In this document: piece by piece, positions 11,580 to 55,118 of the stretch
Layout: every line of letters begins with the position of its first letter
Numbering within the stretch: the stretch's first letter is position 1
Origin: a virus
Virus record (IMG/VR): IMGVR_UViG_3300044641_004056
Location: 1-55,735 of that record
Length of the DNA: 55,735 nt
Strand: one strand, 5' to 3'
Made by a program: the position numbers and the translations under genes
The notes under the pieces: model-generated
The model's input: the letters and a program-made list of their open reading frames with translations, nothing else
What the model was told of the DNA's origin: nothing
The model's database searches: none

Positions 11580-11804
11580 TTATTCGTTAGCCAATTCGTA
11601 ATCAGATTTAATTCCTAGTGGCTCTAGCTTAAATTCAAAAGATAAGTTCTCATCATTGTATGTAACTGATAGTTGCATATCATCATTTGTTGTAGCCATA
11701 AAATCTTCTGTTGAAATTTCAATTGAGCCTATCTTGCTTAATACAGCTACTAAAACTCTAGATGCATTCATTGTCTTGAATACGTCTTCTGCATTATATG
11801 TCAT
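11580..11804 (-). CDS. Small acidic conserved hypothetical protein
   Basis: A 74-residue acidic protein, probably mixed alpha/beta (helix VFKTMNASRVLVAVLSKI, then strands with DMQLSVTYNDENLSFEFKL). No family recognised. It has AAGGA before the ATG and overlaps the polymerase gene by 4 bases; the link between polymerase and recombinase genes suggests a replication accessory. Confidence 0.68.
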   Translation of the reverse strand: MTYNAEDVFKTMNASRVLVAVLSKIGSIEISTEDFMATTNDDMQLSVTYNDENLSFEFKLEPLGIKSDYELANE

Positions 11805-14800: not shown

Positions 14801-15070
14801 ATGGTTATAGGCCTGAATTGATTTATCTGTCTTTGAAGATCTATCAAATCTATCTGTTGGAGAAATGTATGCTTCCACTCCAAGAATTGGCTTGATCCCT
14901 TGCTCTTTACATGCAATTTGCATTTCACGGTGTGAAGATAGTGTTCCGTGGTCAGTAATAGCCAGAGAAGTCTGACCAGCTTCTTTTGCAGCTTTTACAA
15001 GTTCGGCAGGAGAATTAAGCCCATCCATTAATGAATAGAAAGAATGCACATGCAAATGTGTGAAGTTCAA
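11801..15070 (-). CDS. dnaE: DNA polymerase III alpha subunit (DnaE-type)
   Basis: A 1089-residue family C polymerase. The N-terminal PHP domain starts FTHLHVHSFYSL with metal-ligand histidines (H5, H7, H9) and ITDHGTLS. The palm shows GPGRGSAAGSL and PDIDTDFEDRRR with D418 and D420 as catalytic acids, and the finger/thumb region includes YQEQVMQ and GYSFNRSHAVAYS. The C-terminus carries an OB-like segment. It is shorter than bacterial DnaE (about 1160). The start is a TTG at 15070 with GGAG 7 bases before it. No beta clamp or clamp loader is seen in the window, so host factors may be used. Confidence 0.95.
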   Translation of the reverse strand: MNFTHLHVHSFYSLMDGLNSPAELVKAAKEAGQTSLAITDHGTLSSHREMQIACKEQGIKPILGVEAYISPTDRFDRSSKTDKSIQAYNHIILLAKNKKGLENINTLQELAWTEGFYHKPRIDREVLKEYAEGIIVLSGCLNGLISKAIERQEFSEAKLVLQDFKKTFGEDFYVEVQSHNPTEINSKLLELADQLKIKAVATGDAHFAKEEDRVLEEAMLILSTSPKSDKDADFEMSRQMPDMIDRFNYLYPDRRISFQDYNLFIQSRSEIEADFNKSGITRTDIYDNTMEIADKIGEYDFYEGLDLLPIPKTNADKKLSDMALEGLKRLSLDKDQVYLDRIAEELSIIKDKSFASYFLVVADMITWAKSNNIMVGPGRGSAAGSLVCYALGITDVDPIKYDLLFFRFINPERNDFPDIDTDFEDRRRKEVKDYLKKKFKHVASISTYTYFKDKGVIRDAARVFMVPLSDVNRAMKSIDTFEDFMDSPNTKEFRAKYPEVTWLAERLRGKIRSVGVHAAGVVVAKDDLRKYAPIESRADANDEVSGRIPVVAYDMDTVADIGLIKLDALGLKTLSVISDTLKSIKSRYDKDINLYDIALDDENVYKIFNDGYTKGIFQAEATPYTNLLIKMRVDKFEDLAASNALVRPGAMNTVGASYIKRKHGNEAVNYIHPIMKPFTENTYGVIIYQEQVMQACVHLGGMTWSEADKVRKVIGKKQDAKELSPFKDKFIQGAKKHISAEEADNLWKTFEAHAGYSFNRSHAVAYSMLSYYTAWLKCYYPLEFLFSILKNEGDKDARTGYLIEAKRLGIKVKLPHVNESDVNFSLQKDSIRFGLAEIKFISDSIANKIIEKRPYENYKDFVDKASKKGSGINSRAIASLNSIGGAAFDDNPRSGKEAESYYEFLGIPSFNLSNLDPKIKAQARPIDEFEELGSFVMFGMAKSIKRGNGWSRIEIVDESGSVGLFDIEQTKIETNKMYFVLVGDNRISRYIEVDLINKDSEDVFVKYLYAQSYPIDENQKFVISYTPYKTKAGKTMAHLVMSDKDKNLNRAIVFSSMYPLSLAKMREGMICEPVLKTLEDGTLMVKEVK

Positions 15071-15095
15071 CTTAATTCTCCGCCTATACTCTCTC

Positions 15096-15770
15096 TTACC
15101 AGTCTACGCTGCTGCTTGTTGAAGATGACTCTCGTTCTTCTGGAGATGACTCACCAGTATAGAATGCTTCCTGCTCTGCGTATGGAACGCTACGCACTGC
15201 TGTTTTTTCTAAATCAAACAGCTCGACAGCAGAAAAGTCGAATGGCTTTTCATCTTTAGCCAACGGTATAATTGTGTAGCTTGTGTCTGTCTTAAGACCA
15301 CTACGCTTTACACGCCACATTAGATTTGTGATGCTTCCCATTTCATTTGCATATTCAATCAGTGTTGGTGTAATTGTTTTACCGCTTACTCCTTGAGAAA
15401 GAATTGCTACATATGGCTCAGTCTTTCCATCATCGACTAGAACATTAATGTAAAGACGCTTTCTTGCGCCCCAACCAGCCTTTGGATCCTTGCGGTGCTG
15501 CTCTTGAGCCCAGTCACGGCCTTCATCTTCCATTGTGTCTAGTGCCTTACGGCGATAATCTTTAGGGTTTGTGTGTTCAATTGCAAAAAATCCGCAACCC
15601 ATTTTTTCATTATAGTGTGGTGAATCTGGATCAAGCTCTTGTAAGAAGCGAATCTTTACAGCTTCTCCATCTTCAATCTTTAACCACTTTGCCTTGCTAT
15701 CTTCTGAACTAGTGTATGTAACCTTGTCCATTGCCTTTGTCATTCCTGACAAACCTTTTACTATTCCCAT
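15096..15770 (-). CDS. Putative gp32-like ssDNA-binding protein
   Basis: A 224-residue protein. The middle (residues about 50-150) holds charged and aromatic segments (GCGFFAIEHTNPKDYRR, ARKRLYINVLVDD) like those of T4 gp32-type proteins that pair an OB core with charged surfaces. The C-terminus is acidic and serine-rich and ends SSSVDW, resembling the disordered acidic tails that ssDNA-binding proteins use to contact partners. It has a strong AAGGAG and its own promoter region, between primase and polymerase. The assignment rests on composition and context, not on a firm motif. Confidence 0.55.
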   Translation of the reverse strand: MGIVKGLSGMTKAMDKVTYTSSEDSKAKWLKIEDGEAVKIRFLQELDPDSPHYNEKMGCGFFAIEHTNPKDYRRKALDTMEDEGRDWAQEQHRKDPKAGWGARKRLYINVLVDDGKTEPYVAILSQGVSGKTITPTLIEYANEMGSITNLMWRVKRSGLKTDTSYTIIPLAKDEKPFDFSAVELFDLEKTAVRSVPYAEQEAFYTGESSPEERESSSTSSSVDW

Positions 15771-15790
15771 TTTATTCTCCTTATGTATGT

Positions 15791-15845
15791 AACGGTATAT
15801 ATCCGTTTGTGATCACTTATATTATTGTTTAATTTTTATATTCAA
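15791..15845 (-). promoter_or_regulatory. Promoter with operator-like palindromes before the ssDNA-binding gene
   Basis: Minus strand: -35 TTGAAT (15840-15845), 18-base spacer, -10 TATAAG (15816-15821). Immediately downstream are the perfect palindrome GTGATCAC (15809-15816) and the inverted repeat AACGG-N7-CCGTT (15791-15807). The predicted start lies inside the first palindrome, a natural position for repressor control. Elements are seen; control is inference. Confidence 0.48.
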
Positions 15846-16818
15846 AATTAGATATGGCATTTGTTATACAGGCCTTAATATCTTCATCAGACATATCACC
15901 TGCATCTTTTACACCCTCTGGATATATTCTACCATAAGAATGCGATGCCCACAAGATGTTTTTATTACTTAATTTGTATGCAATTGTTGAGCCTAAATCT
16001 CTTCCCGCCTTATCCGCATCTGTCATAATAATAACTGTATTGAAGTATCTATTTAGAAGGTTAAGGTTTTGTCCAGATATGTGGCCTCCCAGCGTAGCAA
16101 CAACATTTGGAAAGCCAGCCTGATGAACACGAATTGCATCAAAGCTAGACTCTACAACAATAACCCTGTCTCCAATTTTTTTGGCACGGTGGATATTAAA
16201 CATAGTTTTGCTTCTTGGTAGGTCTTTGCTATTTTTAAATCTTTTATCAGAAATGGATCTACCAACAACTCCAACTGGTATTCCATCTGGACTATGTACT
16301 GGAACAGTTACCATGTCCATATTTTCAGAATACCCTAGTGAAAAGTATGCCATTGATTGTAAATCAATATTACGTGACTTCAGATAATCCCTTGCCTTAT
16401 CGCTTTGAATTAATCCATCATATAAACTTTTTAATGTTTCCTCTGGGAATTCAACAAAATCTGGCTTATCTTCTAGTATGTCTTTAAGAGATTCATCAAA
16501 GTTTTCTAATGCCTCAGATTGCTTTGATTCAATATACCTCAAAGATTGAAACTCATTTTTATTTAAAATCCTTTTTACTAGATCACTAAGTGTTCCAGCT
16601 TCACCACAAGATGGGTTGAAACAGATATATGCGCCCTTTGTTTTGCTTATACTAAAGCTTGATGTATGTCTGTTTGAATGAAATGGACAATATGCAAGGA
16701 AGTCATTGGATGTTTCTCCAACCATATCTATTCCTAGACTTTGGACTATTGATTTTATGTGGGCAGAGGAGTATTCCGATGTATCAATTTTCCTTGTGTC
16801 ATACCCTCTAATTGCCAT
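15829..16818 (-). CDS. dnaG: DnaG-type DNA primase
   Basis: A 329-residue primase, shorter than bacterial DnaG because it lacks the large C-terminal helicase-binding part. The zinc domain has C44, H47 (YCPFHSNRHTS) and C66, C71 (ICFNPSCGEAG). The TOPRIM core shows E223 in VIVVESSFDAI, LGGHIS, and D267/D269 in MTDADKAG. It makes RNA primers for the DnaE-type polymerase. The start at 16818 (MAIRGYD) has purine-rich AGAAG upstream; an ATG at 16869 would give 17 more residues but overlaps the previous gene by 115 bases and lacks an SD. Confidence 0.93.
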   Translation of the reverse strand: MAIRGYDTRKIDTSEYSSAHIKSIVQSLGIDMVGETSNDFLAYCPFHSNRHTSSFSISKTKGAYICFNPSCGEAGTLSDLVKRILNKNEFQSLRYIESKQSEALENFDESLKDILEDKPDFVEFPEETLKSLYDGLIQSDKARDYLKSRNIDLQSMAYFSLGYSENMDMVTVPVHSPDGIPVGVVGRSISDKRFKNSKDLPRSKTMFNIHRAKKIGDRVIVVESSFDAIRVHQAGFPNVVATLGGHISGQNLNLLNRYFNTVIIMTDADKAGRDLGSTIAYKLSNKNILWASHSYGRIYPEGVKDAGDMSDEDIKACITNAISNFEYKN

Positions 16819-17045
16819 GCCTTCTTCTTTCCTACATAAACTCCATGGATAGTCATTAAGAACTTCCATGTTTGTCCGTCAAATTCTACCGAAAAAGCTG
16901 GGTCTATGTCAAGTGCCCTGGCATATCCAGAATCTTTCATTTGTCCTACAAGCAAATCTTCATATTGTTTTTTGATTCTGATCATATCGGAATCATCTAA
17001 AAACTCAACTCTTATTTGAAACCTTTTAATATTTTGATGGGTCAC
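16755..17045 (-). CDS. Conserved hypothetical protein between helicase and primase
   Basis: A 96-residue protein starting at a GTG that overlaps the helicase stop (GTGA). The sequence is alpha/beta, with FQIRVEFLDDSDMIRIKKQYEDLL and a C-terminal TIHGVYVGKKKAWQLEG. No family is recognised. Its location inside the helicase-primase pair and its 64-base overlap with the primase suggest a replisome-linked function. Confidence 0.68.
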   Translation of the reverse strand: MTHQNIKRFQIRVEFLDDSDMIRIKKQYEDLLVGQMKDSGYARALDIDPAFSVEFDGQTWKFLMTIHGVYVGKKKAWQLEGMTQGKLIHRNTPLPT

Positions 17046-18277
17046 TTGCTCAACTCTGGCAGGTCTTCATAGATTGGAGTAATAACTCCTCTATTGATAT
17101 CCCAGTCTAGGAAGAATCTAAAGTCATGCCCATGCCTGTTCTTTCTGGACACTACCTCAATTAAATCTGTATTAGCATGCTTGTGAATAGCAATAGCCAT
17201 GTCAGCATCATACTCAATAGCCTTTGACCATGCAACTTGGCTCATCATTGGAGGCTCTTTTTGATCTGAAATATCATCTGCTGTTGCAGCAGTAATATCA
17301 ATAATAGGGATTCCATTTGTTACAGCTAGCAGCTTGAAGTCTCTTGAAATATTTCTATTTCTTTCAACTTCAGAATTGCTTCGCTTATTGTCATTAAACA
17401 ATTGATGGTAGTCAAGGATTACCAAGTCTGGTTTATGCTGATCAATCTTGCCTTGAATAGTTGCTGGAGTTACTTCTCCAGCCCCCTCATTAGAAACAAG
17501 AATAAAACTGTTCTTTCCTTCTGTCTTTTTCTTTCCCCATGTTTTAAAATCGTCAATGTTAATATCACCCTTAGACAGGTCGCTTGCTCTAAATAAACCA
17601 GAGCCAAGCATGGTATAAATTCTATCTCGCATATTCTCTGGTGCCATTTCAAGAGATACGATCATGGGCTTGAATCCCTGTTCCCAAGCCTTGCATGCAA
17701 GATACGATGTAAACCAAGTCTTACCACGTCCTGGCCAGCCAATTGCGACAATAAGGTGTCCTGGGGCCATTCCAGTTGGATATGCTTTATCAATTGCATC
17801 AAATCCTGTTAGGATACCTGGACTTCCACCCATAGCTAAAGATCTAGTTCTTACTGACTCATAGTGTCTTTCTGCTGAATCTAAATCTGTTATGTCTAGG
17901 TCTTTAACATTATTTGTGTACCTGCTTAAGTTTGCAAGCTGAGATTGCATTGTTCCAAGCACTCTAGATGGTGCATCTTCTTTTAGCGATGAGCCAGCCT
18001 GCATAAGAATTGTCTTTAGCTTATTGCCCACAAATTCATTTTTTAGTTTATCTAGATAGTATCCAGTCTCACCTTTTGTTTCGACTGGCTCAAAGTCTTT
18101 AAATTTATCTTGTAGAATTCCAACTTCTGGTACTGCTCTAAACTTATAGTAGTATGACTTGAGACCTTCCCAAATATCTTTATGGGATACAAAAAGGTCG
18201 TCTGAATTGTCTGCAAGTATGGTACTGATATCTTTATTTTTACAAACTGCCGAAATTAGTTCCGCTTCTGTATTCAC
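17042..18277 (-). CDS. dnaB: DnaB-type replicative helicase
   Basis: A 411-residue ring helicase. The N-terminal domain resembles that of DnaB (AELISAVCKNKDI, YYYKFRAVPE). The RecA-like motor has Walker A GWPGRGKT (180-187), then IVSLEM, and Walker B LVILDY (285-290), with MSQVAWSKAIEYDAD and RKNRHGHD as later motifs. It unwinds DNA ahead of the polymerase. The GTG start at 18277 follows the upstream stop directly (TAGTG) with GAGG 7 bases upstream. A separate small gene upstream could supply the loader. Confidence 0.93.
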   Translation of the reverse strand: MNTEAELISAVCKNKDISTILADNSDDLFVSHKDIWEGLKSYYYKFRAVPEVGILQDKFKDFEPVETKGETGYYLDKLKNEFVGNKLKTILMQAGSSLKEDAPSRVLGTMQSQLANLSRYTNNVKDLDITDLDSAERHYESVRTRSLAMGGSPGILTGFDAIDKAYPTGMAPGHLIVAIGWPGRGKTWFTSYLACKAWEQGFKPMIVSLEMAPENMRDRIYTMLGSGLFRASDLSKGDINIDDFKTWGKKKTEGKNSFILVSNEGAGEVTPATIQGKIDQHKPDLVILDYHQLFNDNKRSNSEVERNRNISRDFKLLAVTNGIPIIDITAATADDISDQKEPPMMSQVAWSKAIEYDADMAIAIHKHANTDLIEVVSRKNRHGHDFRFFLDWDINRGVITPIYEDLPELSK

Positions 18278-31675: not shown

Positions 31676-32265
31676 ACCTGCTCCAGAGCTATAGTTACGT
31701 TCCAATAAGTTTGTTGTCCTCTTTTTACAACTGTAAAATCAGCAGATGTAAACATTACCAGGTAAGTATAATCATCAGATAAAGGCATTGTTGGATCAGT
31801 TATCAACAATGGATTAAAAACTGTTGGGTTTATTTTTATTCTAAATGGTACTCGTCCTGCATCACTTTCATAAAAATTCTTTATATCTTCTGCCCCCCAG
31901 GCACCATCAACTGTTTCATTTCTAAATGATGGAATCATGTCCCAAGAAACACTAATGTTTAGTTTATCAGCAATAAAATATTTTCTTAAAGTTCCGTCTG
32001 CCATTCTAGTAGACTGCTCAATTCTATTATTGTCTAATGTCAAAGGGCCTCTATTGTGCTCAGTAACTCTTCTAAAAACATTTGTTAGTGCTGCAAATGA
32101 ATAATCAAGTCCGTTTCTAGTCGCCACTGCTGAAGTATAAGTATTTCCTGGAGCAATATAGGTTGAGCCTTTGTAGCTAAAGGAATTATTGACTGGATTA
32201 ATTGCATATGGATCTGCTGCTTCTATGTATAAAATTGATCCTTTGGGTAGGGTTTGAAAACTCAT
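31672..32265 (-). CDS. Distal tail / minor tail protein
   Basis: A 197-residue protein directly after the tape measure, in the place of the distal tail protein. NISVSWDMIPSF, YESDAGRVPFRIKIN and the C-terminal YWNVTIALEQV are typical of the beta-sandwich tail-tip adaptors of siphoviruses of Actinobacteria. Function by position. Confidence 0.7.
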   Translation of the reverse strand: MSFQTLPKGSILYIEAADPYAINPVNNSFSYKGSTYIAPGNTYTSAVATRNGLDYSFAALTNVFRRVTEHNRGPLTLDNNRIEQSTRMADGTLRKYFIADKLNISVSWDMIPSFRNETVDGAWGAEDIKNFYESDAGRVPFRIKINPTVFNPLLITDPTMPLSDDYTYLVMFTSADFTVVKRGQQTYWNVTIALEQV

Positions 32266-35200
32266 TATGGGCCAACCCTTCTATTTACTCCAGCTGCCAT
32301 TTCTTTTAACTTCATCTCTCTGTGTATTTGAGTTGCAACATCTTGTGCTGTTACATTTGTTCCATTTAATTCTACACTAATATTATATACTGATCCTGAT
32401 GCTATTGCAGATGTTGTAGCATTTGGATTAAATGGGTTCATATTGGCTGGGATAACAGCTTCATTCTTATGAATTAATGCTAACATATCTGCTGGAACCA
32501 TATTGATTCCCGCCTCAAATCTAGGCAAGTTCATCATACTTCCAGGTTTATCATTTTGCCCAGGAGCTGTCAGCATTTTGCCAATAGCCTCCATTATTTT
32601 ACTCATATCAATATCTGTTTTGTCGCCCAAAGTGTTTATTGAAGAAGGAATCAATCCTAAAGGTGGCATCTTAGAAAGAATTGATGTTAATATGTTTGGC
32701 TTTTTTACAGCACCTGCTTTTGGAATTATATCTTCCCAGCCTAAATTGCGAGCTAGATCCGCTAGAGCTTCAAAATTATCAGACCCTCCTATGATATTGT
32801 GGCTTTTGAGAAACTCTCCAATTCCCAAATAGATTTCAGATTGAGGACCAGCAGCTTTTGGCTCAAATATTTTCATCATAGCTGCACTAGTTTCCATCCA
32901 TGAGCTAGTAACCTGGCTAGCTCGCCCATGCATTCCCATATATAGAGTACTATATAAGTTATCGAGTAACAGTGAAGCAGATTCTATAGGGTTAGATGAA
33001 GATCCACTTATATTATAAGCTTTGCCTTTATCCCAACGGCTCATTAGGCTCTCACGACCAGGTACTTTATCTCTTAAAGTTTTTATTGCTCTATGTGAAA
33101 ATAAATCAGCATATGTCTCTGAAACTCCGCCCCTGCTTACATTTTCCAATCCATATGCTGCAAGTAGCCTTCCCAAGTCCTCAATCTTACCAATTAGACT
33201 TTGGTCTCTATGACCAAGTTCATGTAATAAAGTTGTTGGTTTTGCATGGCGGTGTGTACTCATGCCTCCAAGACCATCGCTTCTTAGCTTAAGATCTGGC
33301 ATGTGCAATCCTAGGCCTAAATGTTGATAAAAAGCTGGGTTATCAGCATTTGGAGTAAGGTATGCTTGGCTTCTTTCTAATAAAGCCTTAAGCCCCTTAG
33401 AAGACCCATCTGCGAGTTGCTTGGAAAGCATGTGAGCTTTTGATAACTGCTTTGGAGTGTCTATGGTTATTCCAGTGCCTTTTTCTATTGCTGTTGTTAT
33501 CCATGGAGAATCTGGGACTCCTCCAATTCCTCTTGTAAAAGTTTCTGTTGCAGAACGTAGCTGTCTAATTATTTCGCCATATTTTTCTTTGGCAAGTGTC
33601 GGAGCCAAGGCGCCACCGTCCATTAGCTTATTCAATAACTTTGGAAACAATACAGTATTATCAAAAATCTCTAAGGGCAAATTGCCTTTTTGAGCTGCCT
33701 TAATAGAAGAATACTTAAATGGATTAAATGATTTTAATAAAGGAAGAGTGTTTTGTGCTCTTTCTACTGTTTCCATAATAGATGCTTTTGCAATAGTTCC
33801 TGCACCCTTTAATCCTTTTCCGCCTTTAACAAGTGATGATCCTGGAACAAAATTTAACGCTGTCCAAGCGTAGTCCCCCTTGGTTCCACTACCTGCTATT
33901 ATTTCTTCAATTGGCTTTCCAACGCTATCGTAAACAAAATTTTCTACTGATTTAAATCCAGGGACTTTTTGGAATTGAGAAATTATTGGAATATTTCTAA
34001 AAATACCTTTAAGTATTCCTTCGGTGTACTTTCTTGTACCAGGAGCTTTATCTACAGCTTCTGTATTTTTTCCAAATTGATTGAAGTAACTACTTACTTT
34101 ATTTTTTAGTCCTCCAAATAAGCCTCCATTTTTATAACCTGGAACTAGGCCACCATCTGCATATCCAAGAGCTGCTGTATAAAGAGAGTGTGGGTCTTTG
34201 CCAATATTTTGTATTGCTGGCGTTCCACCACTGTTTATTAATAGACCGCCAAGCGTGGTCTCACCTTTATACTTAGGCCTTCCAAAACCGACTATAGATG
34301 CGCCTGGATGATTGTATAACCTTTCTCTTCTGAATACTCCATCTCTAATTCTGTTTACTCTGTCTTCATCATAATACTCTTTAGCTTCGTATCCCTTTGG
34401 AAAGACTAGAGGTGGAGCTACCTCTGAAGTATTTCCTTCAATAGTTTGAAGCTTTGTGTCTGATAAAATTCTTCTAACTAGACCTATGTGCTGAATTCTA
34501 TCTTTGCCTGGCTTGTTGTTATCATAATCATAGTTAAAGAATGCCATATCTCCGACCTGTGGGCCTTCTGTATGATAATCACCTTTTGCTTTAAACTTCT
34601 GAGCACCTGCTGGGGTGTAAACCATATTGTCTAGCGGAACTCCAGCAGCACTTGCTACCCAGTTCATAAAGGCACCGCACCAAGAAATAAACCGAGAGTT
34701 TATTGCACTATCTCTGTCGTTTTGCCATTTGCCAAAGAATGTGTCGTTATCCTCTTTGCCCTCTTTATATCCCACCATCGACTCTGCTGCGGTAATCATT
34801 GTAGACAGCTTACCGTCTGGCTTTATTCTATTCATAGACGGATCTGGTTTTTTATGAATTACTGGTCCTCCACTAGCAAACATGAGTCCGCCTTTTGCAA
34901 AACCAGGAACTGTAGCCGTTGATGTATCACTTGGTTGCATTGGAACCGTATTTGGTTGTAAGTTTGGATCAATAGGTGACAATTTAATTGGTTGAGGTTT
35001 TTTAAATGTTGGACTTACTGAACCAAATAGGTCTAGGCTACGAATATTATAACCTGTCTCCTTAACTTCATCTCCGTCGCCATACCATCCAATTACATCA
35101 ATTATATCTTTACCAACTCTAGAAACTATAGATGCATGATCTGGAATACCGTCTCTGATTAACCTAGTTTCATTTCGGCTCTCTCGTTGTTGATAATCAA

Positions 35201-38200
35201 ACCAAGCTAAGTCTCCAACTTTAATATTTTTATAATTGTTCTTTTTAGTTAAATCATTAAAAACACCTTTTTTCTTATACTGTTGGGTTGCCTGCCATGC
35301 ACTATGCATTTTATCTGATATTTCAACTCCAGCTTTTTCAGCTACCCAGGCAACAAATTGTCCACACCACCATGTAACGTCATTGCCTATACCAAATTTT
35401 TTATTTCCCCAGATATTAAACTTATTAGTGTCAGACATTCCACTGTCAAAGAAGCGATCATCGCCAGGGACTGCACCTGCTTGTTGAGAACCAAACCCTC
35501 CGTCAGGAGTCATTCTGTCATGGAGTCTGTAGTTGTGACCTGATCCAATCTGGCTTCTTGCAATATCTAAAAATCTTCGAAGAGATCCCATTGGTGATTT
35601 GATATCACTTATACCATAATCTTTTGTTGGTGGACTATAGAACTCATCCATACCCTTTTTCCAAAGAGTTCCCGTAGGCATGACTGGAACATATCTATTA
35701 TCACCTAATGAAATTCGTGACGGTGCCAATGTACCATCAGGTAAATGTGCATGATTAACTGGGCCGCCCTTATGGAACTTCTGTGTATTAATTGCATCAA
35801 GTGTTCTAACACCATATTTTGCAACAGATGATGCTTTAACTACATATTCTCCATGCGAAAGCATTGCTGGAATAGAATCAGATGTTCCAGTTCCTGGACC
35901 AGTTATGTGTCCTCCCGCTGCTTTGTTAACTGTCCAAACAAGAACTGGTGGGGATGCATTCCTATCAATAGACTCAATTCTTATCGATCCAGATTTTTTA
36001 ACTCCAGCAGATCCCATTGATAAAGCCATAATAGAACCATTTGGGCCAACTTCAAGAATTGTGCCTGGTTGTAGATTTCTTCCACCACCCTTAAATGAGG
36101 CTGGCGAAGCAGAATAGAATCCTTCTTGCAAGTACTCTTTGTCTCCAGTTATCTGATTTGTTATGGTCTCCGCAACACCCTTTTGGCCCTTCTTGCCTAG
36201 AGTATTTCGGTTAGCTGTAACTCCAGTTGAAAATGCACTTATTCCTTCAGATTTATCCTTAAATCCTAAAGCCTTTAAAAGAGCTATTCTCAGTCTATCT
36301 AAAGTTGTTCCTCCAGTTATATCTTCTGCAATGTTTGCTACCGCTGCTACGTCCCTATTAAACTGATTTAAAATATTTGGGCTTATTGTTGTGGTAGTAT
36401 CATATATAGGCTTGCCGTTTTTATCAAATCCAGTAGGAGACCCAGTTGGTTTTGTAGTTACTGTAGTAGCTACTGCCTTTCCGTCTTTATCAAAATACTT
36501 TGAAAAGCCATCACGTACTACTTTTGCAAGAGCGGTATTGCCAGTACCTGCTACTTGAATTTCTTTAATTAATGCAACTAGAGAGTCTTTAATTTTATTC
36601 TCTTCTGCTACTCTTTCTTCATCTGGAAGAAACTGAGATTGAACAGCACGTTGAGTCAAATCATTGTATTGTTGCTGGAAAGTAGTAAGCTTTGAAGCTA
36701 TTTCCTGGGCGATTGCTGCCCTGTCCTGAGCGTTTTGTAGCGCAACTGCTTTTTTATCAGATGCTTCTTGTATCCTCTCAGACTTTTTCTCTAAAGGCGC
36801 TTTTGCTGCATTTGCAGCATCTTCTATTGCTTTTTGAGCAAGCTCCGATTGTCTATTTAAAGTAAGTTGATCTATGTCTAGTTTAGCTTGGTTTGCTCTA
36901 GCCATATCTCCACGAGAAACAGCGTCAGCATATTCAATCTGTAGCTTTTGTAATTCCAAAGCATAGTTTGATGCTTCTTGAGTTGCTCTTAATGCTTCTA
37001 ATTTTTTATTCTTTTCATCATCAATAAGCTTAATCTTTTTAGCAATTAATTTTAATTCATCCTGTGCGCTTCTCTGTGCAGCAGCAGCAGATCTTTGTGT
37101 AGCAGCTGAAACAGATCCTATAGTTTTTTTCAACTTCTCTAGGGCTGAGCCCACTGTTCCAAATGTGGTTGCGGAATCTCCTGCTTTGGTCAACTGGGCA
37201 ATTCCAGATCCAATCGCTTCTGTAAATCCAGCTAACCTTATTGCTAAGCCAGAATCAATTTTACTTAAATCAATACCAATCTGATCTGTGAACAAAGCAT
37301 ACTTTGCCAATATTCCCTTTAAGCTGTCTGCTTCATTTGAAATACCAGCTAATATTGGTTGGGTTTTTGCAAGGTTCTCGTATACCTCTGAGCCAATTGC
37401 GTCATTAAATCCTGGATACATTTTTTCTGAGCTAGACATAACCATTTCATATGCTCTATACTCATCTATAACATTGCCCATCTCGTCTTTTGTTCCGACC
37501 AAACCTGCTCTTGCTGCCTCGAATGTACCGATTAGTCCTTCAAATCCAGCAGCAATCTCTTTGCCCCAATCAACCATGCCAGAGCCCCTATTGATTGTAT
37601 TTATTAAGTTTCCAACAGCATATTCTGCAGCAGTTGATTTATCTGTAATCTTTCCAAATGCGCTATTTCCAAGGAGATCAAATGCCTCCATAGACTTTTT
37701 GCTATTAAGTAATGCTCCATATATCTTTCTGTTGGCTTCTTCAACACTCATTCCGCCTGCAATAAATTGAGCTTTTGTGCTTGTTAAAAGTCTCTTGCTC
37801 TCTTCTGGGCTTGCTGATCTATTGATAGATTCAATCAAGTCTTTCAGGCCTTTACCCTCTTCTTTAGCTTTCTTAATATCTTCTACGGATTGAGGTAGAC
37901 CAGGCATTCCTATTCCATTATTCTTGGCAGCCTGCCCTGCAGCTCTAACGGCTTCTGCTTTATCTAGATAACCTTGCATTTGCTCTTTTAGATTAAAGTA
38001 TTTTACTCCAGCTTCTTCTGCTGCTCTAGATGTTAATGAAAGCCCCATGGTAGCATCTTGAGACTCATCTTTAAAGTGCTTGTAAAGTTTAAAAGCTGCG
38101 GTAGCTATAGTTATTAATATTCCTATAGGACCAAATCCTTTTACAAATCTCATAACACCTGCGAAAATTTTTGTTAAAGTTAAAGCACCCATCTGTATAG

Positions 38201-41200
38201 TCTTTAAACCTTTACCTAAACCAATAGCTCCAGCCTTGGCTGCAGTAAGAAATTTTGTAAGAGGAAGGAATGGAAGAATGCTGCTTGCAGCCATAACTCC
38301 CATACCAGCAGACATTCCAGACATTTCTCTTCCAAGTATGTTTACCTTCTCTTTACCCATCAGGGTCATTCCAGCCATTGAGCCAGCCATGCCGATACCC
38401 ATGCCCATGCCCATTCCCATGCCTTGCCTTTGAGGAACTTGAACTCCAGCAGCTCTAGCTTGTGCTGCCGACATTGAAACGGCTTGTCCGCCAGTTGATG
38501 CGTTGTTTACAAGGTACTCTGTTTTTCTAAATCCTAAGCTTCCAACTTTTCTAGATTGTACGCCATCTCCACGATCCTTATACCTTCCAATATATCCTGG
38601 CCCCATGAATCCTTGTGGTGGAACCATTCCAGCAGGATAATGTCTTGCAGCATACGCATTTTGTTCTTGTATAACTGAATTCCTAAATGCTGATGCTCTT
38701 GCCGCAATGGCACTTGCACCCGATTGTAAAGCAGTACCTAATGATTTTGAAGCTGCTACCATTCCAGTAGCAAATTTTTGTGAAGCTGCTATCATTGACA
38801 TAGCAGACTCTTTATATGCTTGATAATGATGAGTTCCAGATGTCTTAAGACCATATCTTAGAGTTGTAACACCTCTTGAAATCGACATAGATAAATCTTT
38901 AAAAGCTTGTGATATTGCTGCTGTATTTCCAATTCCTGGAATATTCATTGGCATTGTTGGCATGTTCATATAAGGGAATTGTGCAAGTCTCATTGTGCTA
39001 ACTGTTCTGGCCATAGATGCAGTAGGGACTCCAGTATAAGCATTACCACGAACTCCAGTGCCGCCAACATAAGGAACACGTGCCACTTGCATCTGAGGAT
39101 TGTCAGTTGCTGTATATGAAGATCCACTACGTTGATTGTAAGACGCGGCTCGCTCTGCCCTAGCTCTTTCCTGTGCTGCTCTTGCAGCTGGGTTCCCCTT
39201 TTTACCGTAAGCGTATCTGCCTGATCTAACTGGACCGCCAACAGGTCCACCAGAATTAAGATATTTTGGATTAGCATGCATAGAATGATACTTAGCCCAA
39301 TTGACATCCATTCCCGCTTCAAACCTTTCAAGAAGTGCTAGGTAAGGTTTTCTTTCTTTTTTAGGAATAGCAAGAATGTATCTCTTTAGTTCTGGATAGG
39401 CAGCTTCCATTTTCTTTTTTATAGCAGCTCCATATTGTCTTGGAGTCATTTGTCCGATAATAGGAGCGGTGTCACGAGCAAAATCTTTTCTAGCTCCACC
39501 CTTAACTTGTAGCAAATTGATCATTGCCATCTCTTCCATAGAAGGCATTGTTTTTGCATAGTCATCGTTCATAGATGCTTTAGCTAATACTCCTGCATTA
39601 CTAACATCGGCTAGTCGTCTTCCATGAACATTTGCTCTTGATAAATCTTTATTGCCAAAAATAAGAGATGCAATGAGCTGATCTAAAGCTTCATCCTGAC
39701 TAAACTTTCCAGGAACAGAAGTATTTGGATTAATAAATCCTTCATCATAAGGTGATTCTGCCCCACGGAATTTTGATTTTCCAGTTGGGTCTAATGGGTT
39801 GCGAATTGTTTTTCTAGTCTGAACGGGAGTAATAAGACCTAGTATTCTTCCGATATCTGTTCCTCTAGTTTCTGCAACTAAACTTTTTTCATTTGGAACC
39901 GCTTTAAAGAACACTCTATTTTTTTGCTGATCGTCATAAACTCCACCAACTCCAGGTACAGGAAAGCTGCGTCCCGTGCTTTCCGATATTATATGGCTAT
40001 ATGATGCTTCTGGATAAGGAGAGCGTCCTGTAAAGGACATTGTACGTGCATGCTGTAAAACCTTTAACTGTTGAGTTGGCGTTAACAGCCTAAGCAATGT
40101 CGGTAGGTTACCATAGTTTAATCTACCTCTAGAGATAGACCCGCCTGGAATCATTCCCCCAAGGTTGTAGCCTGCTGGTACGAGTCTAGGTGGTCTTCCT
40201 GGTATCCACCTTTGTCTTGTTGCTGCAGCCTCTAAGAACATGCTCCAAGAATTTCTTTGTTTTCTATTGGCCCTTACAACAGTACCAGACTCTATTTGTG
40301 CCCTGGTTTTAAACTTACCGTCGTCCATAACTGCTGCATATAGATCGTCTACTGTTGCAAACTTATCCATACCTGTTCTCTTCAAAGCTAGTGCAAAATT
40401 TTCTCTTGCATCTGCTGCATTTAAATTTAAAACATCTCTTGATAGACCCAGAGTTTCAAGCCTGCTCATTATGTTATTTATTCCAGAAGGAAGAACTGCA
40501 GCTAGTCCCATATAGCCGCTGGTCATATAACCAAGAGAACCCCTGCGTCTAAAATGTGCTCTATCATGTAATCCCTGAATAATAGGCATACCTTTTTTAT
40601 TTTTAAATGTTGTTGGAGAAACTGCAGATATTAAATCATGCACTCCAGCAAATCTTTGGTCGCGGAGCATTGCATCTCTAACTTTATTTAAATTATAATT
40701 AAGAGCCTTACTGCTACTTATTTCAGCAGTTTTAGCATTTTTAACTTTTAGCGCTGGATGTTTTTTTTCTAAATCTTGTACTTGTTTAATTCTTAGTTTT
40801 ACAAATTGTTCATCAGATCCACCAGATTGCATTTTAGCAGAATCAAAATTGGATGTTGCTGTCTGGATAGCTTTATCCATAGGCATTTTTGCAGTATAAG
40901 ATAGTTCTGCTGCATCCAGCATAATCATTCTTACTCTCATATCATCTTCGTACCTTGGATTATTAATGAATCTTAAATATTCCTTGTACTGTTTTTTGAA
41001 TAGTCTTTCATCCATTTTACTGCCTGGAGTGTTAGCTGTTTTCTTTCCGTATCCAGTAACACCATTCATGATCTGACCGCCAAAATTATATCCACTATTT
41101 GCTGCATCTACTGCTGCGTATAGCTCAGGCATTCTCTGAATCTGTGGACCAAAGACAACTTCCCGTGGTGTAAGAGCTGCTGTGATGCTTCCGCCATCGT

Positions 41201-44078
41201 TTAAGTAAGTAGATGGAGCCATAGCAACTAGCGCAGCATTTGCTGGATCCATAGAAGCTTGTTGGTTTAAAACATATCCTCCAAGAGGAACGTTTCCTAG
41301 TCTGTCATCATAGTTAACTGAAGAAGGGCCCGAAACCACAGTCTTGTTTGGTCCGAACGATTCTATGTCTCCACCAGTATTGAATCTAGGAGGCCTTGTT
41401 GTTTGAATGCTGTAAGGGGCGCCAAATGTTCTTATTCCTCGAAGCCTTCCGAACTCGTTCATTACGGCAGCATTTGCTTTTTTCTTATAAAGATCTCTTA
41501 GTGTAAATTGTCCATTTGCATCAACAACTGGTTGATCCATCATTGGAGCTCTTGTTAAATCTATTGTTCTTCCTCGGCCTGCTGCGTATGCAGTTACTGC
41601 AGCTCCCATGTCTGCCTCTATTTGTGCATTCAATGCAATTATTCTTGCTTTTGCTTGTTCGACTGTTATTTCTGCATTTCTCATTTGCTGAACTATTGCA
41701 GCTGATTGAGTTGCTGCACTATCTGCAAACCTTTGAGTTATAGGAAGTATATCGTCAAATGTGTCTAGTAGCTCTCTGCTTACCGTTCCGCCCATTGCAA
41801 TTGTTTTCTTTAAAGCTGCAATTTCTTGTTGGCTTTGCATTCCAAGTGTCGCCATTAATGCGTGGTGCTTTGCTGCTTCACCTGGAACAATTCCTGTAGA
41901 TATTCCTTTTATACTTGTTAGCCCTTCAACATTTGGAAGTCTATCATGCATATAAATTTGAGGAGTTCTTGATATTCCTCTATTTACTGGGACTGCTCCT
42001 GGAACTCCTCCAAATAGTGTTGCAGGATTGTTTGGGTCTCTTGGGTTAATATGAGACATAGCTCTAGTATTAGGGTCTCCAACATATGGATCGCTAGGAT
42101 CAACTACTCTTCTTCCAGCAATCATTATAGGTGCACCGCCAACTGTGCTTACTCCTGGATTTACTGGTATAGCATTTTTAGCTGATACTGCTTGAAGGCT
42201 CTGATAATCCAAAACAAGTTTTTGTAATGCGTTGTGAAGAACTTGGGCAGCTGCTGCATCTGAATAAAATGCAGTTTCAACCATTTCAGCTGCTTTTTGA
42301 GCAGCAATAATTTCTGGGGTAAGCATCTTCCAGCCATTGGCTTTCATAAAGAATGCTCTTAGCTGAACGATACCCTTAGTTATATATCCAAAGAAGTTTG
42401 CAAGAACACCAGTTAACATAATAAGTGGTCCAACTAATGCAGTAAATCCTGCTAAGAAAGTAAGAGCTTTTTTAATTGGGGCTGGCAAACCAGTAAAGAA
42501 ATCTAATATCTTAGTTGCTGCAGTTATAAGCTTAGTAGCTACACCTAAAAACTCTTCGCCGACATCTGCAAGCTCTGCTTTAAGACCTTCAATTGCTCTT
42601 TTATATTTACCCGATGCAGACTCGGTAATCATTTTTAATTCTCGAGTAGCAATATCTGCTAGCTCTCCAGTAGTTGCCTTCATTAAGTTCAAAACTTGAA
42701 GAGTCTGGCTTCCTTCTTTACCTAAGTTATTAAGCAATGCGCTCATTCTTGCAAACTGGAACTTTCCAAACATTTGCTCCATTGCTCGTGCTTTACTTAA
42801 TGGGTCCAACGAATCCAAAGCTTTTTGTAAATCCATGAGGAGTCCAGTAGTGTCTCCAGTATTTTTTGCAACCATCCCCATTACATCTATGCCAAAATCT
42901 GACATCATGCCAACAGTTTGCTTTGTTGGGTTAATGAGAGATGCTAAACCAGACTTAAGTGCATTAGCACCTTCTGATGCGTTAATACCACCCTCACGCA
43001 TTGCAGTTAGATAAAGAGCTAAGTCTTTAACATCTCCACCAAGTTGCTGAATTACTGGACCAGCCTTTGGAATTGCTTCTACCAAATCTCCTAGAGTTGT
43101 TGAAGTCTGGTTTTCGACTGCGTTCAAAAAGTTAATTGATTCTGTAAGTTCTTCAGTATTCTGTTTAAACGCTGTTTGAATAGATAGAGTTGCCTTCATT
43201 GCGTCTTGTCTATCAACTTCACCAAGTATGGATAGTCTTGTTGTTTCAGCAATAGAATCCAAAAGCTGATTGCCCATTTGGCCTGTAGCTGCAATATCAG
43301 CACCTAATGCAATAGTGTCTTTAAAAGATGCACCCATTGTTTTAGACAGAGTCTTTGCGGTCTCTACAACCTCTTCTCTAACTCTTTTTAACTCTGTTGC
43401 AGATGTTGCAGCTAATCCACCGTAAACTTTTGTAAGTCTTACTAGCTCTTGATCTGCCTCTCTAAAAGCTTTTCCTGCTGCCGATCCAAACATTGTAAGA
43501 GGAACTGTTAAACCAACAGTTAGCTGTCTACCAGCCCACTGAGTATTTTTACCCCAGTTAATTAAAGATCCTGCTCCTTCAGACAATGCACGATTCATGA
43601 TCTGCATTTCCATACGGGCTAACTTTCCACTATTTGCTATAGCATCTAGGCCTCTAGGAATCATAACGTTGTACTGCATTAAACCTTGAGCATTTCTGCC
43701 TAGCGGTTGCAGCACTGAATTCTGAAGCATTACCTGCTCTTTGGCAAGCTCCCTTATCATACCCTTTTGAGTTGTAGCATGTTCTCTAAATGTTGAGAAG
43801 TAGTTCCTAAGCTTTAATCTACCAGCATCTAGATTTTTACCGAACTTATCTACATCAGAATTAAGGTTTACGAAGTGGCTAGAATACTGACCGCTTCCAG
43901 TTAATGTATCTCTAAATAAGTTATTTGCTAATTTTGTAGAAGAAGATATAGCTCTGTTTGATGCAAGCAGCTCTCTTTGTAATTGTTGTAGACTGGCACT
44001 AGCCCTGTGTACTTCAGACACAAGGCTAGACAAGTCGGCTTTGGCGACTATACTCGTTACAATTTGTTCGTCAGCCAC
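32265..44078 (-). CDS. Giant multidomain tape-measure protein
   Basis: A 3937-residue tail tape measure, GTG start at 44078 with AGGAG. Residues 1-890: TP901-type core (TQWAGRQLTVGLTVPLTMFG; LPAPIKKALTFLAGFTALVG). Glycine-rich linkers (FNTGG, YNFGGQ, YNLGG, LNSGG, GYKNGG) at about 898, 1000, 1304, 1608, 2720, 3062 and 3310 separate modules. Residues 1304-1608: kinase-like domain (K1392, E1403, D1478, N1483, D1491). About 2070-2130: hydrophobic segments. About 2326-2466: coiled coil. About 2850-3000: CHAP domain (C2905, H2981). About 3110-3220: second CHAP (C3134, H3197). About 3560-3680: metallopeptidase (HELGH 3619-3623, later ETYAD). It sets tail length and probably breaches the cell wall. 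Core is certain; kinase is inference. Confidence 0.9.
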   Translation of the reverse strand: MADEQIVTSIVAKADLSSLVSEVHRASASLQQLQRELLASNRAISSSTKLANNLFRDTLTGSGQYSSHFVNLNSDVDKFGKNLDAGRLKLRNYFSTFREHATTQKGMIRELAKEQVMLQNSVLQPLGRNAQGLMQYNVMIPRGLDAIANSGKLARMEMQIMNRALSEGAGSLINWGKNTQWAGRQLTVGLTVPLTMFGSAAGKAFREADQELVRLTKVYGGLAATSATELKRVREEVVETAKTLSKTMGASFKDTIALGADIAATGQMGNQLLDSIAETTRLSILGEVDRQDAMKATLSIQTAFKQNTEELTESINFLNAVENQTSTTLGDLVEAIPKAGPVIQQLGGDVKDLALYLTAMREGGINASEGANALKSGLASLINPTKQTVGMMSDFGIDVMGMVAKNTGDTTGLLMDLQKALDSLDPLSKARAMEQMFGKFQFARMSALLNNLGKEGSQTLQVLNLMKATTGELADIATRELKMITESASGKYKRAIEGLKAELADVGEEFLGVATKLITAATKILDFFTGLPAPIKKALTFLAGFTALVGPLIMLTGVLANFFGYITKGIVQLRAFFMKANGWKMLTPEIIAAQKAAEMVETAFYSDAAAAQVLHNALQKLVLDYQSLQAVSAKNAIPVNPGVSTVGGAPIMIAGRRVVDPSDPYVGDPNTRAMSHINPRDPNNPATLFGGVPGAVPVNRGISRTPQIYMHDRLPNVEGLTSIKGISTGIVPGEAAKHHALMATLGMQSQQEIAALKKTIAMGGTVSRELLDTFDDILPITQRFADSAATQSAAIVQQMRNAEITVEQAKARIIALNAQIEADMGAAVTAYAAGRGRTIDLTRAPMMDQPVVDANGQFTLRDLYKKKANAAVMNEFGRLRGIRTFGAPYSIQTTRPPRFNTGGDIESFGPNKTVVSGPSSVNYDDRLGNVPLGGYVLNQQASMDPANAALVAMAPSTYLNDGGSITAALTPREVVFGPQIQRMPELYAAVDAANSGYNFGGQIMNGVTGYGKKTANTPGSKMDERLFKKQYKEYLRFINNPRYEDDMRVRMIMLDAAELSYTAKMPMDKAIQTATSNFDSAKMQSGGSDEQFVKLRIKQVQDLEKKHPALKVKNAKTAEISSSKALNYNLNKVRDAMLRDQRFAGVHDLISAVSPTTFKNKKGMPIIQGLHDRAHFRRRGSLGYMTSGYMGLAAVLPSGINNIMSRLETLGLSRDVLNLNAADARENFALALKRTGMDKFATVDDLYAAVMDDGKFKTRAQIESGTVVRANRKQRNSWSMFLEAAATRQRWIPGRPPRLVPAGYNLGGMIPGGSISRGRLNYGNLPTLLRLLTPTQQLKVLQHARTMSFTGRSPYPEASYSHIISESTGRSFPVPGVGGVYDDQQKNRVFFKAVPNEKSLVAETRGTDIGRILGLITPVQTRKTIRNPLDPTGKSKFRGAESPYDEGFINPNTSVPGKFSQDEALDQLIASLIFGNKDLSRANVHGRRLADVSNAGVLAKASMNDDYAKTMPSMEEMAMINLLQVKGGARKDFARDTAPIIGQMTPRQYGAAIKKKMEAAYPELKRYILAIPKKERKPYLALLERFEAGMDVNWAKYHSMHANPKYLNSGGPVGGPVRSGRYAYGKKGNPAARAAQERARAERAASYNQRSGSSYTATDNPQMQVARVPYVGGTGVRGNAYTGVPTASMARTVSTMRLAQFPYMNMPTMPMNIPGIGNTAAISQAFKDLSMSISRGVTTLRYGLKTSGTHHYQAYKESAMSMIAASQKFATGMVAASKSLGTALQSGASAIAARASAFRNSVIQEQNAYAARHYPAGMVPPQGFMGPGYIGRYKDRGDGVQSRKVGSLGFRKTEYLVNNASTGGQAVSMSAAQARAAGVQVPQRQGMGMGMGMGIGMAGSMAGMTLMGKEKVNILGREMSGMSAGMGVMAASSILPFLPLTKFLTAAKAGAIGLGKGLKTIQMGALTLTKIFAGVMRFVKGFGPIGILITIATAAFKLYKHFKDESQDATMGLSLTSRAAEEAGVKYFNLKEQMQGYLDKAEAVRAAGQAAKNNGIGMPGLPQSVEDIKKAKEEGKGLKDLIESINRSASPEESKRLLTSTKAQFIAGGMSVEEANRKIYGALLNSKKSMEAFDLLGNSAFGKITDKSTAAEYAVGNLINTINRGSGMVDWGKEIAAGFEGLIGTFEAARAGLVGTKDEMGNVIDEYRAYEMVMSSSEKMYPGFNDAIGSEVYENLAKTQPILAGISNEADSLKGILAKYALFTDQIGIDLSKIDSGLAIRLAGFTEAIGSGIAQLTKAGDSATTFGTVGSALEKLKKTIGSVSAATQRSAAAAQRSAQDELKLIAKKIKLIDDEKNKKLEALRATQEASNYALELQKLQIEYADAVSRGDMARANQAKLDIDQLTLNRQSELAQKAIEDAANAAKAPLEKKSERIQEASDKKAVALQNAQDRAAIAQEIASKLTTFQQQYNDLTQRAVQSQFLPDEERVAEENKIKDSLVALIKEIQVAGTGNTALAKVVRDGFSKYFDKDGKAVATTVTTKPTGSPTGFDKNGKPIYDTTTTISPNILNQFNRDVAAVANIAEDITGGTTLDRLRIALLKALGFKDKSEGISAFSTGVTANRNTLGKKGQKGVAETITNQITGDKEYLQEGFYSASPASFKGGGRNLQPGTILEVGPNGSIMALSMGSAGVKKSGSIRIESIDRNASPPVLVWTVNKAAGGHITGPGTGTSDSIPAMLSHGEYVVKASSVAKYGVRTLDAINTQKFHKGGPVNHAHLPDGTLAPSRISLGDNRYVPVMPTGTLWKKGMDEFYSPPTKDYGISDIKSPMGSLRRFLDIARSQIGSGHNYRLHDRMTPDGGFGSQQAGAVPGDDRFFDSGMSDTNKFNIWGNKKFGIGNDVTWWCGQFVAWVAEKAGVEISDKMHSAWQATQQYKKKGVFNDLTKKNNYKNIKVGDLAWFDYQQRESRNETRLIRDGIPDHASIVSRVGKDIIDVIGWYGDGDEVKETGYNIRSLDLFGSVSPTFKKPQPIKLSPIDPNLQPNTVPMQPSDTSTATVPGFAKGGLMFASGGPVIHKKPDPSMNRIKPDGKLSTMITAAESMVGYKEGKEDNDTFFGKWQNDRDSAINSRFISWCGAFMNWVASAAGVPLDNMVYTPAGAQKFKAKGDYHTEGPQVGDMAFFNYDYDNNKPGKDRIQHIGLVRRILSDTKLQTIEGNTSEVAPPLVFPKGYEAKEYYDEDRVNRIRDGVFRRERLYNHPGASIVGFGRPKYKGETTLGGLLINSGGTPAIQNIGKDPHSLYTAALGYADGGLVPGYKNGGLFGGLKNKVSSYFNQFGKNTEAVDKAPGTRKYTEGILKGIFRNIPIISQFQKVPGFKSVENFVYDSVGKPIEEIIAGSGTKGDYAWTALNFVPGSSLVKGGKGLKGAGTIAKASIMETVERAQNTLPLLKSFNPFKYSSIKAAQKGNLPLEIFDNTVLFPKLLNKLMDGGALAPTLAKEKYGEIIRQLRSATETFTRGIGGVPDSPWITTAIEKGTGITIDTPKQLSKAHMLSKQLADGSSKGLKALLERSQAYLTPNADNPAFYQHLGLGLHMPDLKLRSDGLGGMSTHRHAKPTTLLHELGHRDQSLIGKIEDLGRLLAAYGLENVSRGGVSETYADLFSHRAIKTLRDKVPGRESLMSRWDKGKAYNISGSSSNPIESASLLLDNLYSTLYMGMHGRASQVTSSWMETSAAMMKIFEPKAAGPQSEIYLGIGEFLKSHNIIGGSDNFEALADLARNLGWEDIIPKAGAVKKPNILTSILSKMPPLGLIPSSINTLGDKTDIDMSKIMEAIGKMLTAPGQNDKPGSMMNLPRFEAGINMVPADMLALIHKNEAVIPANMNPFNPNATTSAIASGSVYNISVELNGTNVTAQDVATQIHREMKLKEMAAGVNRRVGP

Positions 44079-53357: not shown

Positions 53358-55118
53358 CTATATAGTTTGGAATACAATCCTGTCTCTAGAGTAGGTTGAT
53401 ATAGGATTTTCTGTCATTCGAATCGACGAATCTTGGCCAAGCGCTGAAGGTTTACCGATATAGAGCTCATAATGCTCTAATGGGCTTATCGTGTCGGTTG
53501 AATACAAGGCTATGTTTTGATACAGGTTATCATCTAGAACCCCAGATCTTATTCCCAAAAGCTGCTTACCATTAATCCATAGCTCTCCAGACATTAAGGA
53601 AGATGCGATTATAAAAATATGATTGGGCTCGTCAATATATAGGTGGGGCAGTATGTTTGCTGAAGAAGATGCATCTTGGCCATTTATATAAATACTGCTA
53701 ATATTAGATTTATTAATTGTACCATCTGCTGACCACGAAATTGATGTTTCTACAAGGCCAGTTTTATTAAAGACAAAATGCCCAGGAGATAACGTTTTTG
53801 GAGTAAATATCATTTCTAGGCTTTTTGCTGGCTGTGTAAGATTAACAAAAAAAGCTGATGATTTTGTTCTTAGACCATTGTGGTAATTCCTAGACCTTAT
53901 TGGATAGCTATGACTTGAAAGGTCTATATCCCAACTTGATCCATTTGTTGGCTGTGATACTGATATCGTATTCCCGCCGTTAAGTGCATATATTTTTTTC
54001 TCAGTGTAAAAAGAAATGTTTAAGGAATATAGCTCTGGGATATAAAGATTTAGATTTGAAGATGAAAATGCTATTTTAAAATATAGAAATTTGTTTGAAG
54101 AAAAGCTAGAGCCTTGTATAAATCCTGGAATAGAGGACCCGTTTGTGCAAATACTCCATGGACCAGATTCAGATACATCTGAGACATAAACAGAAACTCC
54201 AGATGATGCAACCCAATCAATCCTTGAAGACACATATGGCTTTATAATACTTAAACCCAAACCCTTTATTATTTCTCCATAAGTACCTGAGCTTAAATAT
54301 ACACTGTTATTATTTTCACTGTAGGAAAGGCTATTGTTGTCATATATCAAAGACTCCCATCTTTCTCGGTCTGGATAAAAATATTGTGTTTCTGGACTGT
54401 ATGCTTTTTCTGAAACCACAAATAATTGTCCTAAGTCTGGAATAACTATTTGCTCTTCATTATTTAAAAATAAATTATTATAGTGTGAATATATTGCTTC
54501 TTGAGGTAAGGCATATCTATATATTGCTGGGCTATCAATTAAAAAATACTCTCCAACTGATGTTGGTCCAGATAAAAAAGTAACACTTGGATTAGTGAAT
54601 CTAATAGAAATATCCTTTGAAGCTACTAGAATTCCATCTACATAAAGGCTCATAGATCTTACAGAGTATACTCCAACGATATGCATAGCCCTGTTTAGAT
54701 TTGGAACAGAATAATCAATACGCTCAGATTCTAATTTGAATACAATATTGCCATTGTCCCAATATAATCCAATTCCAGCAGAGTCTGCTAAAATTGGAGT
54801 TAGAGATACTAATGTTTTTGGATGCATCCAAACTTCAATTGAGAAATCATTATCATACGTATCTGGTGTTGCAAACCCTCCAGTTCCAATTGTTCCAGAA
54901 AAATCTTTTGAGATTGAGAACTGGATATAATTAGAATTATCAATTTTATTTGAGTGGTCTCCTCCTGATACAACTGGCATACCGAGGCGGGATATTTGAC
55001 CTACATAAGATGCGTGATTTCCACATCCAGAATAATCATATGCCACAGATCCAGATGACTCATCTAGCTTCCATAAGCCGATAGGAGAATCTTTTATTAC
55101 ATCAAGGTAGTAGGACAT
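53358..55118 (-). CDS. LamG/concanavalin-fold structural protein
   Basis: A 586-residue protein. Residues 1-200 are a LamG/concanavalin A-like lectin domain: SPIGLWKLDESSGSVAYDYS, GNHASYVG, FSIEVWMHPKTLVSLTP and MHIVGVYSVRSMSLYVDGIL. A second lectin-like unit is near the C-terminus (SLEMIFTPKTLSPGHFVF, IFIIASSLMSGELWING). It is likely a virion decoration or fibre protein that binds carbohydrates. There is no SD; the extended -10 lies 6 bases before the ATG, so its mRNA is probably leaderless. It lies upstream of the portal, an unusual place for a fibre gene. Confidence 0.8.
   Translation of the reverse strand: MSYYLDVIKDSPIGLWKLDESSGSVAYDYSGCGNHASYVGQISRLGMPVVSGGDHSNKIDNSNYIQFSISKDFSGTIGTGGFATPDTYDNDFSIEVWMHPKTLVSLTPILADSAGIGLYWDNGNIVFKLESERIDYSVPNLNRAMHIVGVYSVRSMSLYVDGILVASKDISIRFTNPSVTFLSGPTSVGEYFLIDSPAIYRYALPQEAIYSHYNNLFLNNEEQIVIPDLGQLFVVSEKAYSPETQYFYPDRERWESLIYDNNSLSYSENNNSVYLSSGTYGEIIKGLGLSIIKPYVSSRIDWVASSGVSVYVSDVSESGPWSICTNGSSIPGFIQGSSFSSNKFLYFKIAFSSSNLNLYIPELYSLNISFYTEKKIYALNGGNTISVSQPTNGSSWDIDLSSHSYPIRSRNYHNGLRTKSSAFFVNLTQPAKSLEMIFTPKTLSPGHFVFNKTGLVETSISWSADGTINKSNISSIYINGQDASSSANILPHLYIDEPNHIFIIASSLMSGELWINGKQLLGIRSGVLDDNLYQNIALYSTDTISPLEHYELYIGKPSALGQDSSIRMTENPISTYSRDRIVFQTI

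Follow-up and report, generated by a model that had tools for sequence, protein, structure and literature searches.

What is a kinase-like domain doing inside a phage tape measure protein? The question is raised by the window, by which we mean the whole 55,735-base virus contig analysed here. Within one huge protein that it encodes lie two glycine-rich linkers, NLGGMIPGG and YLNSGGPVGG (Table 1), and between them a first-pass annotation, made from the sequence, had read the active site of a kinase.

The carrier is a tape measure protein

The annotation had called the 3,937-residue carrier a tape measure, and this assignment is borne out by a match to PF10145 (E 1.8e-25, residues 239–438) and by 38% identity of residues 150–600 to annotated Streptomyces phage tape measures, for example those of Bmoc and Karimac. 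The order of the genes (portal, protease, capsid, tail genes, tape measure, minor tail proteins) is also that of Streptomyces phage Karimac. The protein therefore has the PhageMin_Tail domain, the size and the gene order with minor tail genes by which tape measures are recognised.

The C-terminal third of the protein, the length of which differs among relatives (kinase-bearing tape measures range from about 2,700 to 3,940 aa), contains two CHAP stretches, and the CHAP domain is a probable peptidoglycan hydrolase. Also in the C-terminal part, at residue 3619 (window 33210–33224, minus strand), is an HELGH motif resembling those of zinc peptidases; judging from this motif, the part that bears it could process the tape measure protein. 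The module that precedes the kinase, residues 1010–1304, contains no recognised domain.

Table 1. Features of the tape measure gene and of its kinase-fold domain, with window coordinates.
Feature	Residues	Window position	Strand	Basis or remark
Tape measure protein gene	1-3937	32265..44078	-	3,937 aa, single open ORF, GTG start
PhageMin_Tail (PF10145)	239-438	42765..43364	-	Pfam match
N-proximal hydrophobic segment	537-566	42381..42470	-	In 82/82 complete kinase-bearing tape measures
Upstream variable module	1010-1304	40167..41051	-	Identity among close tape measures about 22 to 95%
Glycine-rich linker NLGGMIPGG	1305-1313	40140..40166	-	Upstream edge of exchanged block
Kinase-fold domain	1336-1605	39264..40073	-	AlphaFold2 model of residues 1332-1606 and structure matches
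Glycine-rich loop GRSFPVPGVGGVY	1369-1381	39936..39974	-	G1369, S1371, G1379 invariant
Beta3 lysine	K1392	39903..39905	-	117/117; model strand 57-63
Helix C glutamate	E1403	39870..39872	-	117/117; model helix 66-81
Catalytic-loop aspartate	D1478	39645..39647	-	117/117
Catalytic-loop asparagine (D-x4-N)	N1483	39630..39632	-	117/117
Metal-binding aspartate	D1491	39606..39608	-	117/117
Glycine-rich linker YLNSGGPVGG	1606-1615	39234..39263	-	Downstream edge of exchanged block
Second hydrophobic segment	1971-1996	38091..38168	-	Equivalent follows kinase in 61/82 complete copies
CHAP domain, better of two stretches	3132-3216	34431..34685	-	Pfam

The domain is predicted to adopt an atypical kinase fold

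The kinase-like domain lies inside the interval first proposed for it, 38990–40170 (residues 1304–1697), the end of which was placed too far, by about 270 bases past residue ~1605 (39264). Both linkers and all of the motifs are where the annotation had put them: VFFKAVP at residue 1389 (with K1392), VAETRGTDIGRILG at 1401 (E1403), GLITPVQT at 1414, FGNKDLSRANVHG at 1474 (D1478 and N1483), and LADVSNAG at 1489 (D1491). The spacings that it gave, 11 from Lys to Glu, 5 from Asp to Asn and 8 from Asn to Asp, are correct.

AlphaFold2 modelling of residues 1332–1606 gave a pLDDT of 91.4 and a pTM of 0.89 from an alignment of 72 sequences with low effective depth (Neff 2.7). This model replaced an earlier one built from 8 sequences, which was poor (pLDDT 63) and for which the Foldseek matches were nearly all kinases too. 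The N-lobe of the final model consists of strands 29–35, 48–52 and 57–63 (K1392 is model residue 61) and helix 66–81 (E1403 is residue 72). Strands 90–95 and 104–112 and helix 130–143 follow, and then the D1478–N1483 loop (147–152), a tight hairpin and D1491 (160), after which five helices make up the C-lobe. A beta-strand N-lobe with helix C, followed by a helical C-lobe, is the architecture of the kinase fold, and the five residues sit in the predicted elements at the canonical kinase places, that is, beta3, helix C, the catalytic loop and the metal-Asp strand.

Structure searches with the model bore out the claim of a kinase-like domain, the nearest solved structures being CotH, CtkA, HipT/HipA, PI4KIIalpha and Fam20C. 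In VIA-align 50 of 50 rows were kinase-like, led by Bacillus CotH (Z 11.9, rmsd 4.1 over 217) and H. pylori CtkA (11.1), with PI4KIIalpha at 9.8, HipT and Fam20C at 9.7, and HipA at 8–9; the lipid kinase Vps34 was also among the matches. Ordinary protein kinases (ePK) scored about 6, as against 8–12 for the atypical kinases. Essentially all Foldseek matches in the PDB were kinases as well (CtkA, prob 0.99), at TM-scores of only 0.3–0.4, large rmsd and a best E of 5e-4. The top BFVD matches were phage proteins annotated as kinase (PI3/4-kinase), portal or ADP-ribosyltransferase. The HRD and DFG motifs of the ePK family are absent from the domain, which has KDL and DVG/DVS in their place. We consider it nearly certain that a kinase fold resides within this tape measure and, because of these structure matches, we place the modelled domain in the structural class of atypical kinases (HipA/CtkA/CotH/Fam20/PI4K-like).

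We claim no family membership, since profile similarity to HipA was not significant (hhalign against seven HipA proteins, P 0.74), and kinship to any named kinase family thus rests on predicted structure. The HipA toxin family was considered and set aside: the record gave no HipA_C (PF07804) match, though four control genomes each give one. Likewise, no profile match was obtained to the CotH family (PF08757), to which the likeness is structural only. No model in Pfam, PHROGs, PADLOC or the PDB sequences detects the kinase domain, the matches being at chance level.

The predicted active site is invariant among homologues

Searches of IMG/VR contigs with the domain and with growing alignments recovered relatives that span 89% to about 31% identity, up to 187 homologues in one scan, a number that includes redundancy between samples. 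K1392, E1403, D1478, N1483 and D1491 are each identical in 117 of 117 distinct homologues across this range, and in this enlarged homologue set the glycine-rich loop residues G1369, S1371 and G1379 are equally constant; S1371 we take to be analogous to the Ser of HipA/HipT, and by analogy with HipA Ser150 it is a candidate autophosphorylation site. Among 72 divergent homologues, 25 of the 275 domain positions are invariant, and of the 62 K/E/D/N residues only six are, five of them being the residues named above; an overlap of this kind has a probability of about 1e-6 under random choice. The five had been picked from one sequence, so that their later invariance amounts to a prediction that was passed. 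The N1483–D1491 spacing of 8 is free of gaps in an alignment of 17 homologues; the corresponding spacing in PKA or HipA is longer, ~13–18. From this pattern of conservation the domain is very probably catalytically active.

Where else does the domain occur? No match was found among cultured phages by tblastn with three different members, and the domain profile found nothing in six annotated tape measures, from phages of Streptomyces, Rhodococcus and Gordonia, nor in a Nocardia phage record that lacks annotation. Two pattern-based scans of GTDB genomes did not find the domain, distant kin being beyond the reach of such scans.

The kinase domain is exchanged between tape measures

All of the domain matches lie in giant ORFs, and the 12 diverse ones examined for PF10145 all carry it. 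Depending on the tape measure, the domain begins at residues ~635–802, ~977–1098 or ~1221–1411, with unrelated neighbours. Tape measures that are at least 87% identical to the window's at the N-terminus, and long enough, all have the kinase at ~1337–1411. Relatives at 70–77% N-terminal identity, such as L231 (2,706 aa) and L243 (2,163 aa), are without it; L231 is 77% identical over residues 1–1012, continues with unrelated sequence and regains homology at 1992.

The clearest case is tape measure L174, which is 98% identical to that of the window in residues 1–600 and 95% identical in residues 1001–1300, and the kinase of which is only ~51% identical. At the DNA level identity falls from 94% ahead of the linker to 59% in the kinase and recovers to 84% beyond it (1606–1700), the changes coming at the glycine-rich linkers. 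The window kinase is instead 90% identical to that of L002, on backbones that are 91% identical, and the kinases of L174 and L209 are 81% identical. The reverse pattern is seen in L087 and L094, the kinases of which are 86% identical and the N-termini 55% identical. The kinase tree and the N-terminus tree are accordingly incongruent: the kinase data reject a clade of the window and L174 (p-AU 1e-37), and the N-terminal data reject a clade of the window, L002 and L003 (p-AU 2e-50). Judged by these sequence trees, co-inheritance of the kinase and the backbone is rejected. Together, the comparisons with L174, L002 and L209 and the conflict between the trees imply at least three kinase lineages on near-identical backbones. 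The kinase domain, as its sequence relationships indicate, is almost certainly a self-contained cassette that is exchanged as a block, and this exchangeability is an addition to what the first-pass annotation had claimed.

Do glycine linkers mark the edges of the cassette in general? Of 128 copies, 79 have a GG within 75 aa upstream of the kinase, where the background is 44%, and the linkers are thus clear edges for the window's group and not for all. In kinase-free tape measures the slot is filled by unrelated modules (L231, 1013–1790; L238, 960–1330; L243, 960–1225), which are separated by linkers of the GG-IPGY type. Splitting the slot by linker pattern merged blocks, and the modules were compared pairwise instead.

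Relation to known kinases and tail-borne enzymes

HipA/HipT, CtkA and CotH share with the tape measure kinase a predicted fold (Z 8–12), the D-x4-N catalytic loop and the metal Asp. They are, in contrast, stand-alone or toxin–antitoxin proteins, whereas this kinase is embedded in a tape measure; HipA, moreover, has no significant sequence similarity to it and an Asn–Asp spacing of 18 (N314–D332) rather than 8. Three BFVD proteins, A0A6J5S481 (annotated as a portal), Onyinye A0A6B9L6W7 (ADP-ribosyltransferase) and HSTV-2 L7TJZ0 (PI3/4K), resemble it in having a kinase-like fold, in some cases in an annotated virion protein, but they are 13–18% identical to the domain and are not annotated as tape measures. 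Phage polyvalent proteins include kinase domains without the whole C-terminal subdomain (PMC5512222). These too are kinases in large multidomain phage proteins, and they are thought to target host proteins; they have lost the C-lobe, while the tape measure kinase keeps a helical one.

Enzyme domains are known from tape measures, as in mycobacteriophage TM4, the tape measure of which has a peptidoglycan-hydrolase domain (Piuri and Hatfull 2006, as cited in PMC13277306). The likeness, as far as that citation describes it, is an enzyme domain used at infection within a tape measure, and the window protein also has CHAP domains; the TM4-type enzyme acts on the cell wall, whereas a kinase fold needs ATP, which points to the cytoplasm rather than the wall. 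Contractile injection systems have tape-measure-like carriers with exchangeable domains, Sle1/Tme (PMC13277306). These share with the present case the carrier, the swappable functional domains and a tail-like delivery machine, but the functional domain is C-terminal and the machine bacterial; a kinase is nowhere mentioned in the text of PMC13277306. A phage-tail-like secretion system has toxin domains that include a kinase of the lantibiotic-synthetase type (PMC3482391). In the literature searched, which lay mostly outside subscription journals, we found no report of a tape measure with a kinase domain. One paper, on a freshwater cyanophage, names both a kinase and a tape measure, but as separate genes.

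A proposed route into the host

According to PMC13277306, the tail ejects its tape measure, which then enters the membrane. We propose that the tape measure, held extended inside the tail tube, would be ejected at infection, that its C-terminal CHAP domains would open the cell wall, and that two hydrophobic segments would insert into the membrane. The stretch between these segments, kinase included, would then arrive in the cytoplasm, where the kinase would fold, bind ATP and phosphorylate a host protein as infection begins. This full sequence, a tail-delivered atypical kinase that phosphorylates a host target, is the reading we favour, with moderate confidence. In all 82 complete copies a hydrophobic segment near residue 535–585 precedes the kinase, and in 61 of them the kinase lies between two such segments; the other 21 have no second hydrophobic segment above threshold. 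In the window tape measure the CHAP domains come after the second segment. In the simplest topology the CHAP domains would lie in the wall, and the inter-segment stretch with the kinase in the cytoplasm, the site of ATP, a placement that is a topology guess from hydropathy. As the tail tube is unlikely to accommodate a folded domain, delivery would need unfolding and refolding. Because the kinase domain sits inside a protein ejected by the tail, phages with the cassette probably inject a ready-made enzyme along with their DNA.

Alternatively, the kinase could act in the virion-producing cell, on tail proteins, chaperones or late host targets during tape measure synthesis and assembly, and simply ride along in the tail. 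Tape measure synthesis takes place in a cytoplasm that contains ATP, so that no unfolding would be required, and the catalytic residues would be conserved equally. However, the cassette swaps without the surrounding backbone and is absent from relatives, which argues against a core role in assembly, and a separate late gene would do equally well; we consider such a role unlikely. Of similarly low probability is an active enzyme with other chemistry or another substrate, such as protein AMPylation or glutamylation, or phosphorylation of a lipid, a sugar or another small molecule. SelO and SidJ are kinase-fold relatives with non-kinase chemistry, and the lipid kinases PI4KIIalpha and Vps34 are among the structure matches, but the domain retains the phosphotransferase D-x4-N and metal Asp throughout, and ordinary phosphotransfer suffices.

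A conserved active site together with free allele exchange fits an enzyme directed against a varying host or defence target. Instead of taking over the host in general, the cassette might work as an effector aimed at competitors, be they superinfecting phages, prophages or host defence. An arms race would be expected to leave alleles that assort freely on near-identical backbones, yet neither a target nor an immunity gene was identified, and we give this possibility a smaller chance than the preceding two. That the fold is a catalytically dead structural or binding module of the tail is very improbable: pseudokinases are commonly binding modules and the domain is located in a structural protein, but pseudokinases usually lose some of the K, E, D, N and D residues, which here are kept in 117 of 117 homologues while the remainder diverges to 31% identity.

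Returning to the tail-delivered kinase, we suggest tentatively, as a possibility rather than an expectation, that the tape measures of this phage group serve as a general rack for delivering exchangeable effector cassettes. The kinase, with its freely assorting alleles, would be one of these, other unrelated modules would share the slot in relatives, and the cassette loaded would decide the outcome in each host. Such a rack would be a tail-borne counterpart of the polymorphic toxins. The kinase itself yields a testable rule, namely that giant tape measures are to be searched for cassettes between their glycine-rich linkers. Beyond DNA, the cargo that enters the cell via the tail is poorly known, and a conserved, swappable, apparently active kinase is a concrete candidate for it: an enzyme that may act prior to any phage gene expression in a large group of uncultured phages.

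Elsewhere in the window, positions 10571–18277 (minus strand) encode a phage RecA, a bacterial-type DNA polymerase III alpha with a PHP domain, a primase and a DnaB-like helicase. Adjoining the portal gene, at 53358–55118 (minus strand), is the gene for a protein of 586 aa that bears a Laminin_G_3 lectin domain.
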